From Elusimicrobiota bacterium (GTDB lineage: Bacteria > Elusimicrobiota > Elusimicrobia > UBA1565 > UBA9628): a stretch of DNA of 64,000 bases. This document shows positions 25,672 to 62,014 of this stretch, piece after piece; the first letter of the stretch is position 1, and each line of letters starts with the position of its first letter. The translations under genes were made by a program, and so were the position numbers. A model generated the notes under the pieces. It searched no databases, was not told where the DNA came from, and saw nothing but the letters and a program-made list of their open reading frames with translations. The stretch spans positions 1-64,000 of the forward strand of contig JAPLKL010000074.1 in NCBI GenBank assembly GCA_026388095.1, given 5' to 3'.

Positions 25672-26322
25672 ATGAGTACCGGCCAGCTCAGGCTTGCGAC
25701 CAGCCTGCTCTTATTGGCCCTGCCCCTGGCGGCGCAGGTCGCAGAGGCCCCAGACCCCTCGCTCACCGCGGATCTCGCCCAGCGCGACCGCCTGCCCCAA
25801 TCCGACGTCCCCAGGTTCAGATGGAGCAGGATGCGCGGCTGGGGACCCGCCGCGGCCCAGTATCCCCCCGTGCCCGTGCCCCTCGGCAAAGACCCGGCGC
25901 AGTGGCGGCGCCAGCGCGTCATCGCCGTGGCTAAGCGCTACATCGGGCTCAGCTACCGCCATCACCACATACCCGGCTGGCACCCATCGCCCAAGTTCAA
26001 CGCCAAGACCGGCCCAGGGCTGGATTGCTCCAACTTCACCTCATGGGTCTACAACTACGGACTCGGCATCAAGTTCGATAGCGAGATCTCCAAGCAGTCC
26101 GAAGGGCCCCTCTCCCCCGGCCGCGTCCTCGGCCCAGACGAGCCCCTGGCCCCCGGCGACCTGCTTTACATCCTGAAGATGAACCGCCAGCGCGTCTCGC
26201 ACGTCGTAATCTACATAGACCCCGAGCATATCATAGACAGCCACGCAGAGAGCGTCGGCGTGCGCCGCTTCGCCGGCTGGTACAAGACCCACCTCTCGCA
26301 CGCTCGGCGCGTCATCGAGTAG
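25672..26322 (+). CDS. Secreted NlpC/P60-type cysteine hydrolase
   Basis: A 216-residue exported protein (signal peptide ending LPLAAQ). The C-terminal half fits the NlpC/P60 fold: LDCSNFTSWVYN with the catalytic Cys, PGDLLYI, SHVVIYID with the catalytic His, then a third polar residue near IIDSH. Such enzymes cleave peptidoglycan stem peptides. Together with the MepA-like protein at 26754 it forms a cell-wall hydrolase pair, now separated by a hairpin-bearing element. Confidence 0.8.
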   Translation: MSTGQLRLATSLLLLALPLAAQVAEAPDPSLTADLAQRDRLPQSDVPRFRWSRMRGWGPAAAQYPPVPVPLGKDPAQWRRQRVIAVAKRYIGLSYRHHHIPGWHPSPKFNAKTGPGLDCSNFTSWVYNYGLGIKFDSEISKQSEGPLSPGRVLGPDEPLAPGDLLYILKMNRQRVSHVVIYIDPEHIIDSHAESVGVRRFAGWYKTHLSHARRVIE

Positions 26323-26330
26323 CCCAAGAC

Positions 26331-26337
26331 CTCCCAT
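26331..26337. repeat. Left target-site duplication (7 bp) of the 26338 element
   Basis: CTCCCAT abuts the left inverted repeat; the same heptamer is at 26709-26715, directly after the right inverted repeat. Confidence 0.6.
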
Positions 26338-26708
26338 CACGACCTCACCCACTTTTCCAACGGGCCAATAGAGCCCCGGGACGGTGAGTGCTCCGACGCA
26401 GAGAAGCAAGGTGAAGCCTCCGGCGACGCGATAATAGGGGGGCCAGGAATTCTTTTTTGAGGTTTGGCGGCGCAGCCGCCAAACCCGCGCTGACCGAAGG
26501 TCAGCGCCCGACGACTGTGTCCGGACGCAGTCGTCCGAAAACAATCTCTTCCGCGCCGCGTGCCGTGCGTAAGGAGAACGCCGTCGCACGGTACCTGCCC
26601 ACTTTCTATACGGGCAGGTGCGCGGGATTCCGACGGGCTTTGCCCGTCGGAATGGCAGGACGGCAGGGGGCTGCTATCCGCAGCTTAGGAAAAGTGGGTG
26701 AAGTCGAG
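26338..26708. mobile_element. 371-bp MITE-like element carrying a hairpin array
   Basis: Terminal inverted repeats of 21 bp (26338-26358 and 26688-26708) match at 19 of 21 positions; the core CACCCACTTTTCC is identical. A 7-bp direct repeat CTCCCAT flanks it exactly on both sides. No transposase gene fits inside. The right part (26461-26684) is a run of stem-loops: 461-485 (11-bp stem, GCA loop), 487-507 (9 bp, GAA), 510-535 (11 bp with one G-T, CCGG), 563-591 (7 bp), 591-621 (10 bp), 627-653 (12 bp, TTT), 670-684 (5 bp). The whole fills the gap between the NlpC/P60 and MepA-like genes. Confidence 0.65.
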
Positions 26709-26741
26709 CTCCCATCCCTTGCCGTCCGGACTTCTTCCTGT

Positions 26742-26747
26742 TATCAT
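26742..26747 (+). promoter_or_regulatory. -10 element of the MepA-like gene (leaderless type)
   Basis: TATCAT ends 6 nt before the ATG at 26754. Confidence 0.45.
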
Positions 26748-26753
26748 TAGGCT

Positions 26754-28169
26754 ATGCGAACACCCCTCATCCCGACCCTCTGCGTCCTGATCTGCGCCGG
26801 CCTCCTGGCCGCGGCGACCAGCAAGGATCCGAAGGATCCGGCGGCCAAGCCCAAGCCCTCCAAAGAGTTGATGGCCAAGGTCTGCACGGACGGGGTCTAT
26901 GTCCGCCCCGCGGCCAAGAAAGAGGCCAAAACCGAGAAGCCCGGCGGCGCCGAAAAGGGCAAGCCAGCCGCAGCCGCGGCGGCGCCGCAGCTGCCGCGCG
27001 GCGAAGGCGGAGAGTTCCAGCCCACCGGGGAGGGGGATGTCTCGAAGTTCGTCCCCAACCCCAACGGCGACTGCTCGACCTTCGACAAGCTCTTCGAGCC
27101 GGGCTCCCACGGCGCCCCGGCCGATTCCCTGGAGATCGCCCCGGCCACTGAGGACGGCAAGGTGCCCCCCCCGGAGCGCTTCATGAGCCTGTCCGGCCTG
27201 AGCCTCCTGGCCAAGGGCGACGCGCAGCTCCTGTCGCGCTTCTTCGACGGCAACATCAGCGCCGCGGACCAGAGCCAGGCCGGGAGCCTCCAGCTCGACG
27301 GGGAAGCCCCGGAGACGGACGACGGGGCCGTGGCTGGCGATGCCCAGCCCAAGCCCCTGCCCGAGGGCATGGTCTCACCCAAAGCCCTCAAGCTCGACAG
27401 CTCCCACGTTCCGGCGCCGAACGCGGCGAAGGCGGCCGTCCCCGCCTACGAGCCGCTCCCGTCCCGCTACGACCCGGCCGCGCCCGCGCTCCCCGCCCCC
27501 GAGGAGCCGGGCTTCTTCCGGAGCTTCGGCAACAACGTCAAAGCCGTGGCCAGGGACGCCTGGAACGGCGGCGGCCTGATCTCCAGCGAGGGCATCCTGC
27601 CGCGCAGCGACCGGACCGACCCGCTGACCTCCCCTCCCGTCAACCCGAATCCGGACCGCTCGATCAGCGTGCCCTTGCCCGGCTCCCGGGAGACGCCGGC
27701 CCCGGCCCCGGGCATCAAGGCCGTGTGCGAGCCGGGCTGCTACGGCACGCAGACCATGATCGACCTCTTGAAGAGCATGGGCGCGCAGTACTCGGACTAC
27801 TACGGCCAGGAGCAGCGCCTATCGATCGGCGGCATATCGCGCAAGGGCGGAGGACCCTTCCCGCCCCACGTCTCGCACCAGAAGGGCATCGACGCGGACA
27901 TCATCTTCGTCAAGCACAACGGCTTCGACCCGCTGGCCAACGCGATGATCGTGGCCTCCGTCCTGCGCGTGATGCCGGGCTTCCGCCACATCAACGGGCG
28001 GGAGTACTTCCTGGTCGATCAGAGCAAGCACGCCGCGGTCGGGCAGGGTCTCGACGCGCTGCAGAGGCAGGGAGTGCTGACCGCCGAGCAGGCCGCCCGC
28101 GGTAAATCCGTCCTGGTGCATTGGCCCAACCATAACGACCACTTCCACATCCGCATCCTGCCGCCCTGA
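26754..28169 (+). CDS. MepA-like murein endopeptidase (peptidase M74)
   Basis: A 471-residue secreted protein: signal peptide, then about 300 residues of Pro/Ala-rich sequence without a known domain. A C-terminal domain of about 150 residues matches penicillin-insensitive murein endopeptidase: SHQKGIDADI carries metal-binding His and Asp, and HWPNHNDHFHIRI carries the final HxH. It would cleave D-Ala-mDAP crosslinks in the periplasm. The long N-terminal extension is unusual for MepA, about 270-300 residues in E. coli, and may localise the enzyme. Confidence 0.85.
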   Translation: MRTPLIPTLCVLICAGLLAAATSKDPKDPAAKPKPSKELMAKVCTDGVYVRPAAKKEAKTEKPGGAEKGKPAAAAAAPQLPRGEGGEFQPTGEGDVSKFVPNPNGDCSTFDKLFEPGSHGAPADSLEIAPATEDGKVPPPERFMSLSGLSLLAKGDAQLLSRFFDGNISAADQSQAGSLQLDGEAPETDDGAVAGDAQPKPLPEGMVSPKALKLDSSHVPAPNAAKAAVPAYEPLPSRYDPAAPALPAPEEPGFFRSFGNNVKAVARDAWNGGGLISSEGILPRSDRTDPLTSPPVNPNPDRSISVPLPGSRETPAPAPGIKAVCEPGCYGTQTMIDLLKSMGAQYSDYYGQEQRLSIGGISRKGGGPFPPHVSHQKGIDADIIFVKHNGFDPLANAMIVASVLRVMPGFRHINGREYFLVDQSKHAAVGQGLDALQRQGVLTAEQAARGKSVLVHWPNHNDHFHIRILPP

Positions 28170-35532: not shown

Positions 35533-36411
35533 TCATTTTTTCTCCGCAGGGCCGAAGGTCAATTGGTAGGCCAGGTAGCTTTGCGTGAGCACCGGGCCGT
35601 GGAGGTCGCGGCCGAGAGCGGCCATGACATGGTGATTATCCGTGATGTTGACGACCAAGCCGAGGTTGCAAGAGACCCGGGCGGAGCCGTCATCGGTCTG
35701 GGGGCTCTTGTAGAAGAGCTCGGCGCCGGGAGACCAGCGCTCGTCGATATTATACTGCGCCTGCCAGCCGGCCTGCAGGAAGCCGCGGTTGCCGGCGCCC
35801 GGGTTGAACCAATAGCCGCCGCCGCCGTAGCTCTGCCACTTGCCCATGGTCTTCTGGAGCCATATGGGCAGGAAGACCGGAGTGTTGACGGTGCCGAGGC
35901 CTTTGGCGCGGTCGCCGGTCGGGGCTTCGACCAAGGGGAAGATGCCCACCTGCGGCCGTGAAGCGGTCTCCTGTATGAGGCGGTATTTGGCCCCCAGCTC
36001 CGTGGTGCCGTTGCCGTATTGCAAGGGGCCGCCGGCCGGCCTTATGAAGGAAAGAGGCGCGATGATATGGAGCTGCAGGTCGGGAGCGGCGCCGTAGTTG
36101 ACCTCGACATGGGGAAGGGTCCCGGACCATTGCGTGTCGTCATGGGAGAGTTGGGAGGCCAGGTAGACCTCCCAGTGCCTGTAGGCCACAGGCTCGGGGT
36201 CATCCGTGATGTAGGGCGGACCGGCCTGGAGAGCCTCGGGGGCCAGCAGACAGAGGGTCAGGGCCAAGACTTTGCTGAGGTTCCGGCGCTGCGCGCCGGA
36301 ACCCGCCCCGACACCCTGCGGGTGTCGGGGCCATACTGTGGCCGGACACACTCCCACAGGCTTAGTGTCAAATGTCAAGACCTGACCCCCACCTTGAAGG
36401 CCTCCTCCCAA
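35533..36411 (-). CDS. Outer-membrane barrel protein (phenol-degradation MetA-like family), uncertain start
   Basis: The mature protein starts GPPYITDDPEPVAYRHWEVYLA, the hallmark of a family of outer-membrane 'transporter' barrels related to Phenol_MetA_deg. It continues with alternating strand pattern to the C-terminus. The signal peptide SKVLALTLCLLAPEALQA is clear, but there is no in-frame ATG before it. Candidate starts are TTG at 36411, GTG at 36357 and 36351, or TTG at 36267, the last lacking the basic residues. A hairpin pair (36279-36331) sits exactly where the start should be. Length about 230 mature residues. Confidence 0.65.
   Translation of the reverse strand: MGGGLQGGGQVLTFDTKPVGVCPATVWPRHPQGVGAGSGAQRRNLSKVLALTLCLLAPEALQAGPPYITDDPEPVAYRHWEVYLASQLSHDDTQWSGTLPHVEVNYGAAPDLQLHIIAPLSFIRPAGGPLQYGNGTTELGAKYRLIQETASRPQVGIFPLVEAPTGDRAKGLGTVNTPVFLPIWLQKTMGKWQSYGGGGYWFNPGAGNRGFLQAGWQAQYNIDERWSPGAELFYKSPQTDDGSARVSCNLGLVVNITDNHHVMAALGRDLHGPVLTQSYLAYQLTFGPAEKK
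36279..36343 (+). repeat. Hairpin array C (two perfect stems)
   Basis: Stem 1: 36279-36289 with 293-303, 11 bp, loop TGC. Stem 2: 305-316 with 320-331, 12 bp, loop TGC. A short GGCCA/TGGCC stem follows (329-343). The first stem is preceded by GA, giving the head GAGGTTC shared with arrays A and D. It overlaps the start region of the barrel gene. Confidence 0.7.
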
Positions 36412-43600: not shown

Positions 43601-43604
43601 CGGT

Positions 43605-43969
43605 TCAGGACAGCCTGTACCCCGGATTCTGTCCATCCCCCCTCGCGGGGGGACTGGAGGGCCATTTCTCTGATGCGGCTACCGGGAAGCCCCTCCTTGC
43701 GGAGGACGCGCGAGCCGCGCTGGCCGCCCATCTGCCTTGCTCCCGACGGGGTTTGCCTGGACCCCGGACCTCGCGGCCCGGGCGGTGAGCTCTTACCTCG
43801 CCTTTTCACCCTTACCCGCATCTCGCGATGAAGGCGGTATGTCTCTGTGGCACTTTCCGTCCACGGGTCCTTGCGTTCCCGTGGCCCCGCCTTTCGACGG
43901 GCGTCGCGCTCTATGGAGTCCGGAGGTTCCTCCCCGCCCGAAGACGGAGCGGCCCTCCGGCTGTCCTGA
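43605..43969 (-). ncRNA. rnpB: RNase P RNA, bacterial type A
   Basis: The catalytic RNA of RNase P, which matures tRNA 5' ends. On the minus strand the P1 ends pair perfectly (TCAGGACAGCC at 43959-43969 with GGCTGTCCTGA at 43605-43615). Conserved cores are visible: GAGGAACCTCCGGAC (around 43918-43935), AAAGTGCCACAGAGAC (841-856), AAGGGTGAAAAGGCGAGG with GTAAGAG (around 790-813) and ACAGAATCCGG near the 3' end (624-632). Length about 365 nt. Its 5' end is 6 nt downstream of the stop of the zinc-ribbon gene, so it is probably processed from, or initiated inside, that transcript. Confidence 0.95.
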
Positions 43970-52449: not shown

Positions 52450-52524
52450 GGGCAGTTAGCTCAGCGGTAGAGCACTGTCCTCACACGACAGGGGTCATAG
52501 GTTCAAATCCTATACTGCCCACCA
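52450..52524 (+). tRNA. tRNA-Val (CAC)
   Basis: A 75-nt tRNA: acceptor GGGCAGT/ACTGCCC, D-arm GCTC/GAGC, anticodon stem CTGTC/GACAG with loop CTCACAC (anticodon CAC, codon GTG), T-arm ATAGG TTCAAAT CCTAT, discriminator A and encoded CCA. All stems are intact. The only tRNA gene I can see in the window. Confidence 0.96.
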
Positions 52525-61781: not shown

Positions 61782-61785
61782 ACGA

Positions 61786-61839
61786 GGTTCGGTCCCCGCA
61801 GGGGACCGAACCCCCGCGCCGACACTCCGGTCGGCGCGG
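61786..61839 (+). repeat. Hairpin array D (two perfect stems)
   Basis: Stem 1: 61786-61797 with 801-812, 12 bp, loop GCA. Stem 2: 814-823 with 830-839, 10 bp, 6-nt loop. Preceded by GA, so the head reads GAGGTTC as in arrays A and C. It begins 4 bp after the glmS stop codon and has no T-run. Confidence 0.7.
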
Positions 61840-62014
61840 TTCCGTTGTATGCCCGTCGCCGTCACCCGCTGGCCTGCCAGCATTTTGGGATTGCGGAAAG
61901 GTTGCGCGCGGGACATGGCCGGAGGCTTGTCAAGTCTTTTTTTGCTCGCCGAGCGGCAGGCAGGGGAGTCCATTTCAACCCATTCTCCGACGAGGAACGG
62001 CCATTTTGGGATAT

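Follow-up and report, generated by a model that had tools for sequence, protein, structure and literature searches.

A probable IS4-derived MITE carrying an ordered hairpin array between two genes of an Elusimicrobiota bacterium

Interspersed hairpins in bacterial genomes are usually attributed to REP/RAYT systems, or else left unexplained. A hairpin-rich segment between two genes of an Elusimicrobiota bacterium (genome G000, 4.6 Mb) raises the question of how such an array came to its place and what its fold is for. The segment lies in a stretch of 64,000 nt of contig JAPLKL010000074.1 (the window, part of contig C74), which also contains an RNase P RNA of class A (43602-43968, minus strand) and a tRNA gene (52450-52521, plus strand). 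The analysis of MAG data reported here indicates that the segment is very probably a non-autonomous (MITE-type) derivative of the IS4 family, inserted between the two genes with a 7-bp target-site duplication (TSD) and carrying the hairpin array as cargo (Table 1).

Table 1. Features of the window element, its surroundings and related elements of the host genome (window positions unless a contig is named)
Feature	Location	Strand	Evidence or remark
Upstream gene, putative NlpC/P60-like protein	25672..26322	+	label from the original prediction
TSD, left copy, CTCCCAT, 7 bp	26331..26337	.	sequence
Left terminal inverted repeat (TIR) CACGACCTCACCCACTTTTCC	26338..26358	+	sequence, TIR searches
Decayed 3' end of IS4-type transposase gene, PYYRVAGGFTLLLCVGALTVPG..., frame shifted	26340..26440	-	92% (96/104) identical to C7 left end
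Deletion junction between two G-runs, ~292 bp of C7 form lost	26437..26443	.	alignment to C7
Hairpin 1, GAGG start, stem GGTTTGGCGGC-GCA-GCCGCCAAACC, 11-bp perfect stem	26459..26485	+	
Hairpin 2, GCGCTGACC-GAA-GGTCAGCGC, 9-bp perfect stem	26487..26507	+	
Hairpin 3, GACGACTGTGTCC/GGACGCAGTCGTC	26510..26535	+	
Hairpin 4, CCGCGC...GCGCGG, split by 58-nt insert	26551..26625	+	C7 and C33 without insert
Inserted hairpin GCCGTGCG-TAAGGAGAACGCCGT-CGCACGG	26562..26591	+	scattered repeats elsewhere in genome
Inserted hairpin TACCTGCCC...GGGCAGG	26592..26618	+	
Hairpin 5, ATTCCGACGGGC-TTT-GCCCGTCGGAAT, 12-bp perfect stem	26627..26653	+	compensatory changes among copies
Small hairpin CTGC-TATCC-GCAG	26671..26683	+	
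Right TIR CTCGACTTCACCCACTTTTCC	26688..26708	-	sequence, TIR searches
TSD, right copy, CTCCCAT, 7 bp	26709..26715	.	sequence
Downstream gene, putative MepA/M15-like protein	26754..28169	+	label from the original prediction
Perfect TSDs of TIR-bounded copies	C74; C7; C33; C40; C75b		CTCCCAT; TTTGGCCTCG; TGACCGGAC; TATGCGTGC; AAAGTCAA
Second MITE family, ends GGGTGCACC, ~650 bp, 8-9 bp TSDs	C46, C69		carries related hairpins
Second family, first copy (L132), 651 bp	C46:101518-102169		TSD CTCCGCGC
Second family, other copy (L135)	C69		TSD CATGACCGC, read from flanks
Third MITE family, ends GGCWCATGRCA, ~305 bp, 8-bp TSDs	C51, C43		carries related hairpins
Third family, first copy (L192)	C51:129538-129842		TSD AAATTTTA
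Third family, other copy (L193)	C43:36635-36943		TSD GAAACTTC, read from flanks

The dimensions given in the original prediction (371 bp, 21-bp TIRs matching at 19 of 21 positions, perfect 7-bp CTCCCAT flanks) were all confirmed from the sequence. The combination of TIRs with a TSD exceeds chance: when the window was searched for 21-nt inverted ends lying within 7-bp direct repeats spaced 150-1200 bp from each other, the 371-bp element was the best pair in the whole window (2 mismatches of 21, versus 7 of 21 for the runner-up); the best inverted pair in 30 first-order resamples of the window had at least 5 mismatches; and the TIR pattern was matched twice in the window against 0.03 matches expected. 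The element is predicted to fold far more stably than its shuffles (z -8.4 on the plus strand and -10.3 on the minus strand). As is usual for a MITE, it has TIRs, a TSD and several genomic copies, and is short and devoid of a functional transposase, its sole transposase trace being a frame-shifted 3' remnant. The TSD starts 9 bp past the stop of the NlpC-like gene, and a promoter scan placed a promoter-like site (26719-26747) just beyond the opposite edge of the element, before the MepA-like gene; an insertion in this position would leave both genes working. The empty site that had been suggested as a comparison was not found in relatives, because gene order differs around the sole clear NlpC ortholog (G014, 52%), which has other genes downstream.

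A search with the termini, as originally proposed, recovered further copies that share these TIRs, enclose hairpin arrays and differ in their TSDs. TIRs scoring 16-19 of 19 on both sides enclose 7 of 23 arrays in the host genome (the window element on C74, and copies on C7, C33, C40, C45 and, in two places, C75), whereas the top score among ~4000 random 150-bp stretches was 14 of 19. Three of the 23 arrays (C76, C32 and C43) have one recognizable TIR end only, and 13 have no such TIR on either side. Perfect TSDs of 7-10 bp, all mutually different, flank five of the seven TIR-bounded arrays, and the C45 copy and the C75 copy other than C75b have near-repeat flanks recognized by eye (TCCGGGAGAA/TCCGGCAGGA and GTCGACGC/GTCGGCGC, respectively). 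Because the TSDs differ among copies, the sites represent independent insertions. The C33 copy (218 bp) is a minimal form consisting of TIR, array and TIR, and C40 (224 bp) has recognizable TIRs and a perfect TSD; both are free of transposase remains and have identical hairpin order but different TSDs, and therefore the short form itself has moved.

The original statement that the element encodes no transposase requires correction, since the minus strand of its left part preserves a degraded remnant of the 3' end of an IS4-type transposase gene. The longer C7 copy (611 bp) keeps the last 106 amino acids of the transposase, the C-terminus, encoded antisense to the array. By piecewise pairwise alignment, identity between the window element and C7 amounts to 92% over the left 104 positions and 94% over the right 214 aligned positions; the window element lacks ~292 bp at the G-run junction and has an insert of 58 nt, comprising two hairpins, within hairpin 4. 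The compact hairpin MITE can be traced back, through internal deletion, to a form that bore transposase sequence. A longer ancestor resembling C7 (TIR, 3' part of transposase, hairpin array, TIR) would have given rise to the window form by deletion between G-runs, if the change ran in that direction, and an IS4-type DDE transposase recognizing the TIRs would most likely have moved the unit in trans by cut-and-paste transposition. These remains, frame-shifted or truncated in the window and C7 copies, and the loss of one TIR from several other copies, would also suit a plain decaying IS copy, with its hairpins as debris and the remaining copies as independent relics that never spread in the manner of a MITE; this is unlikely in view of the movement of the C33 and C40 short forms, with their perfect and different TSDs, and of the preservation of stems through paired changes.

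The parent of this probable MITE was, with the same high probability as the whole explanation and jointly with it, an IS4-family insertion sequence, as judged from a C-terminal fragment. A composite query made for family assignment only, from two genomes, by joining the C7 C-terminus to an overlapping fragment of the same-genus genome G001 (LVLAHGFGRHPLPLFTNHKVADGFAAVKLVRAYLKRWGVEEAGRIQK), matched NCBIfam transpos_IS4_3 (4.7e-5, under the curated cut-off) and, weakly, PF01609 (0.022), each at the expected C-terminal position. The signature Y(2)R(3)E(6)K, which defines the IS4 family (De Palmenaer et al. 2008, PMC2266710), is complete in the G001 fragment (YLKRWGVEEAGRIQK), and in the C7 relic R stands where the signature has Y. 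TSDs are 7-13 bp long in the IS4 family versus 4-6 bp in IS701, ISH3 and IS1634 (PMC2266710), and those observed here (7-10 bp in the host, 7-9 bp in genome G022) fit the IS4 range. The transposase C-terminus and a TIR start of CT or CA also agree with the IS4 family; unlike the described members, the elements studied here carry a hairpin array and were seen with no full-length transposase, and the TIR CWCGACYTCACCCASTTTT was assigned to none of the listed subgroups (PMC2266710). The modular elements of IS231 likewise carry non-transposase cargo between TIR and transposase, but they belong to a different subgroup, and the cargo here consists of non-coding hairpins; the conserved CAT ends of IS231 (PMC2266710) are absent from the window element, which ends in CAC / CTC.

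The termini had also been proposed as a lead to a parent transposon. They led to the IS4 transposase fragment in C7 and to a multicopy IS in G022, but the host yielded neither a complete parent nor any full transposase bounded by these TIRs. None of the PF01609 transposases of G000, G022, G050 and G001 has a matching TIR pair, a scan of genome contigs for a transposase parent returned only the G001 fragment, and viral contigs gave no TIR match. Also rejected as parent were candidates on contig C39 of G022, which has one such TIR that adjoins a different transposase, and on plasmids, where the matches are about 30-36% identical.

Exact TIR matches occur in 4 of 341 genomes of the phylum. A hairpin element enclosed by the TIRs, ~380 bp long, is present in G016. 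G022, which belongs to another genus of the same family, has the TIR pattern ~39 times, and most of these matches lie ~120-140 bases away from a contig end, the placement that a multicopy IS would produce by interrupting the assembly. Its type A/D ends continue into a transposase C-terminus that shares 55% identity with the corresponding part of C7. Among 435 pairs, seven A/D ends could be joined to B ends by 7-9 bp flanks that are consistent in reverse complement, against ~0.03 per 435 pairs expected by chance over 7 bp (an arithmetic estimate). The middle of the G022 element is not assembled, so that there is no complete copy, and it is the TIR and transposase C-terminus that it has in common with the window family; from the end pairs together with these shared parts, an IS with these termini has evidently been active there. 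The ~39 closely similar ends (loci L096-L125) give the appearance of a recent burst of an IS4-type element. This IS has hairpins of its own: at the A end, the stretch from the TIR to the transposase stop forms a branched structure (z -2.0), and a very strong fold is present at the type C end (z -9.2). The predicted link between hairpin arrays and transposition is upheld by the insertion scar of the window element, TIR-bounded siblings bearing their own TSDs, the IS4 relics in the window element and C7, and the occurrence of this TIR in a related multicopy IS of another genus.

Within the window element, the "about seven" stem-loops that had been counted are 7 to 8, and of the first two, both assigned to a GAGGTTY type, hairpin 1 conforms but hairpin 2 does not. 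The first inserted hairpin, with its loop TAAGGAGAACGCCGT, recurs in scattered positions across the genome, also outside this element (for example, at C43:64710). Among array copies, hairpin order is constant and stem sequences vary: hairpin 2 occurs as GCGCTGACC, GCGCCGACC, GCCCCGACAC and CCCAGACACCCT, each time with a perfect partner arm. Hairpin 2, whose arms could not be aligned, was omitted from an alignment of six copies, in which 96.7% of cells are paired and both sides have changed in 8 of 35 pairs; none of 500 shuffles scored as high for covariation, and the score of these six sequences is far above slid controls. Stems thus stay paired through sequence change by compensating substitutions.

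The hairpins may be retained because a stable fold matters. Their predicted role would most likely be at the RNA level, in blocking read-through or stabilizing the upstream transcript, and a stable fold could buffer neighboring genes so that insertion beside genes is tolerated; hairpin folding and transcript buffering have precedent in other MITEs (PMC10969869, PMC2229807). A live alternative, compatible with the MITE reading though on the unlikely side, is that perfect stems are upheld not by selection on the fold but by template-switch correction of palindromes during replication. Such upkeep would suit the pattern among copies, where most stems contain no mismatch even though loops are variable and entire arms can be different; acting alone, it would leave the conserved hairpin order unexplained. 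It is improbable that the array is a structured RNA or transcription insulator of the host that was captured by transposons and kept for its host role: hairpin order conserved across the genus, covariation and intergenic position accord with this, but an Rfam search found no known RNA family at the element, and a terminator scan of the element region found no intrinsic terminator or terminator-like T-run.

The array extends beyond this probable MITE. A covariance model of it gave 24 matches in the host genome and weaker ones in the same-genus genomes G004, G005 and G006 as well as in G012 and G054; no IS4-type TIR was seen around the matches inspected in relatives, and the best TIR candidates around sister-species arrays were within the null. 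Two further GAGGTT hairpin arrays without recognizable TIRs are found in the window (36277-36385 and 61784-61860). As 13 of the 23 host arrays are without these TIRs, the array is not confined to this element, and transposition, predicted to be one route by which arrays spread, is supported with the element as one vehicle of several. Related hairpins are housed in two more MITE families (Table 1), each with two copies that have the same boundaries and different TSDs; the TIR scores of the C46 and C51 copies (24.6 and 22.6) are barely above the best of 40 null trials (22.2). The second family contains a GAGGTT hairpin array together with loops bearing a GTAAGGA...CCGTC motif. A right end similar to that of the third family was noticed in G054, a member of another taxonomic family, and a TIR3-like match inside a transposase gene of C77 was judged a coding coincidence.

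With homologous hairpins in three MITE families of different TIRs, the array predates or is independent of the window element and uses several vehicles. The element interior is probably one version of a modular array that the lineage carries in several MITE families and that travels as non-coding cargo. A broader proposal, tentative and less probable than its opposite, is that the array can be passed on as a module and has switched between unrelated transposon families, maybe as a general accessory or parasite of Elusimicrobiota DDE transposons, kept by structure and not by sequence. Hairpin modules common to MITEs with different ends, together with paired changes, make the purpose of the fold testable: it may serve the transposon (through tolerated insertion, insulation or transposition), or the stems may come from palindrome repair.

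The occurrence of arrays without TIRs in the host and sister species, and the presence in the host of two Y1_Tnp (PF01797) genes (C74:64046-64372, 46 bases past the window end, and C46:58138-58479), could indicate that the array itself is mobile in the manner of REP/REPIN sequences, with a Y1 tyrosine transposase mobilizing it in single-stranded form, and that its presence in an IS4 relic is accidental. This is quite unlikely. Both RAYT-like genes are without flanking GAGGTT hairpins, on which ground RAYT was rejected as the mover; the arrays start with GAGG and have no REP end tag GTAG or CGTC (PMC3733652); four arrays without the IS4-type TIR fall inside MITEs whose TIRs are different and whose TSDs are 8-9 bp long; and in compact TIR-bounded copies the array is placed 26-44 bp from both outer ends. 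REP, REPIN and BIME sequences with RAYT (PMC3733652) are similar as interspersed intergenic palindromes in arrays, but the array copies here bear the scars of DDE-type transposition, having moved within TIR/TSD elements.

The IS4-derived MITE reading also invites comparison with ERIC, NEMIS/Correia and QMITE (PMC10969869, PMC2229807), which are likewise short, intergenic and without a transposase ORF, with TIRs, TSDs and strong RNA folds, but the elements here contain an ordered array of separate hairpins common to MITE families with different TIRs. BrickBuilt of Porphyromonas gingivalis (PMC4596501) similarly encloses a repeat array in a MITE; its array is a 23-nt tandem minisatellite, in contrast to the distinct, covarying hairpins found here. 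Elsewhere on C46, the contig of one second-family copy, a long ORF near position 67500 (L083), downstream of a DDE transposase, resembles by eye a group II intron reverse transcriptase.
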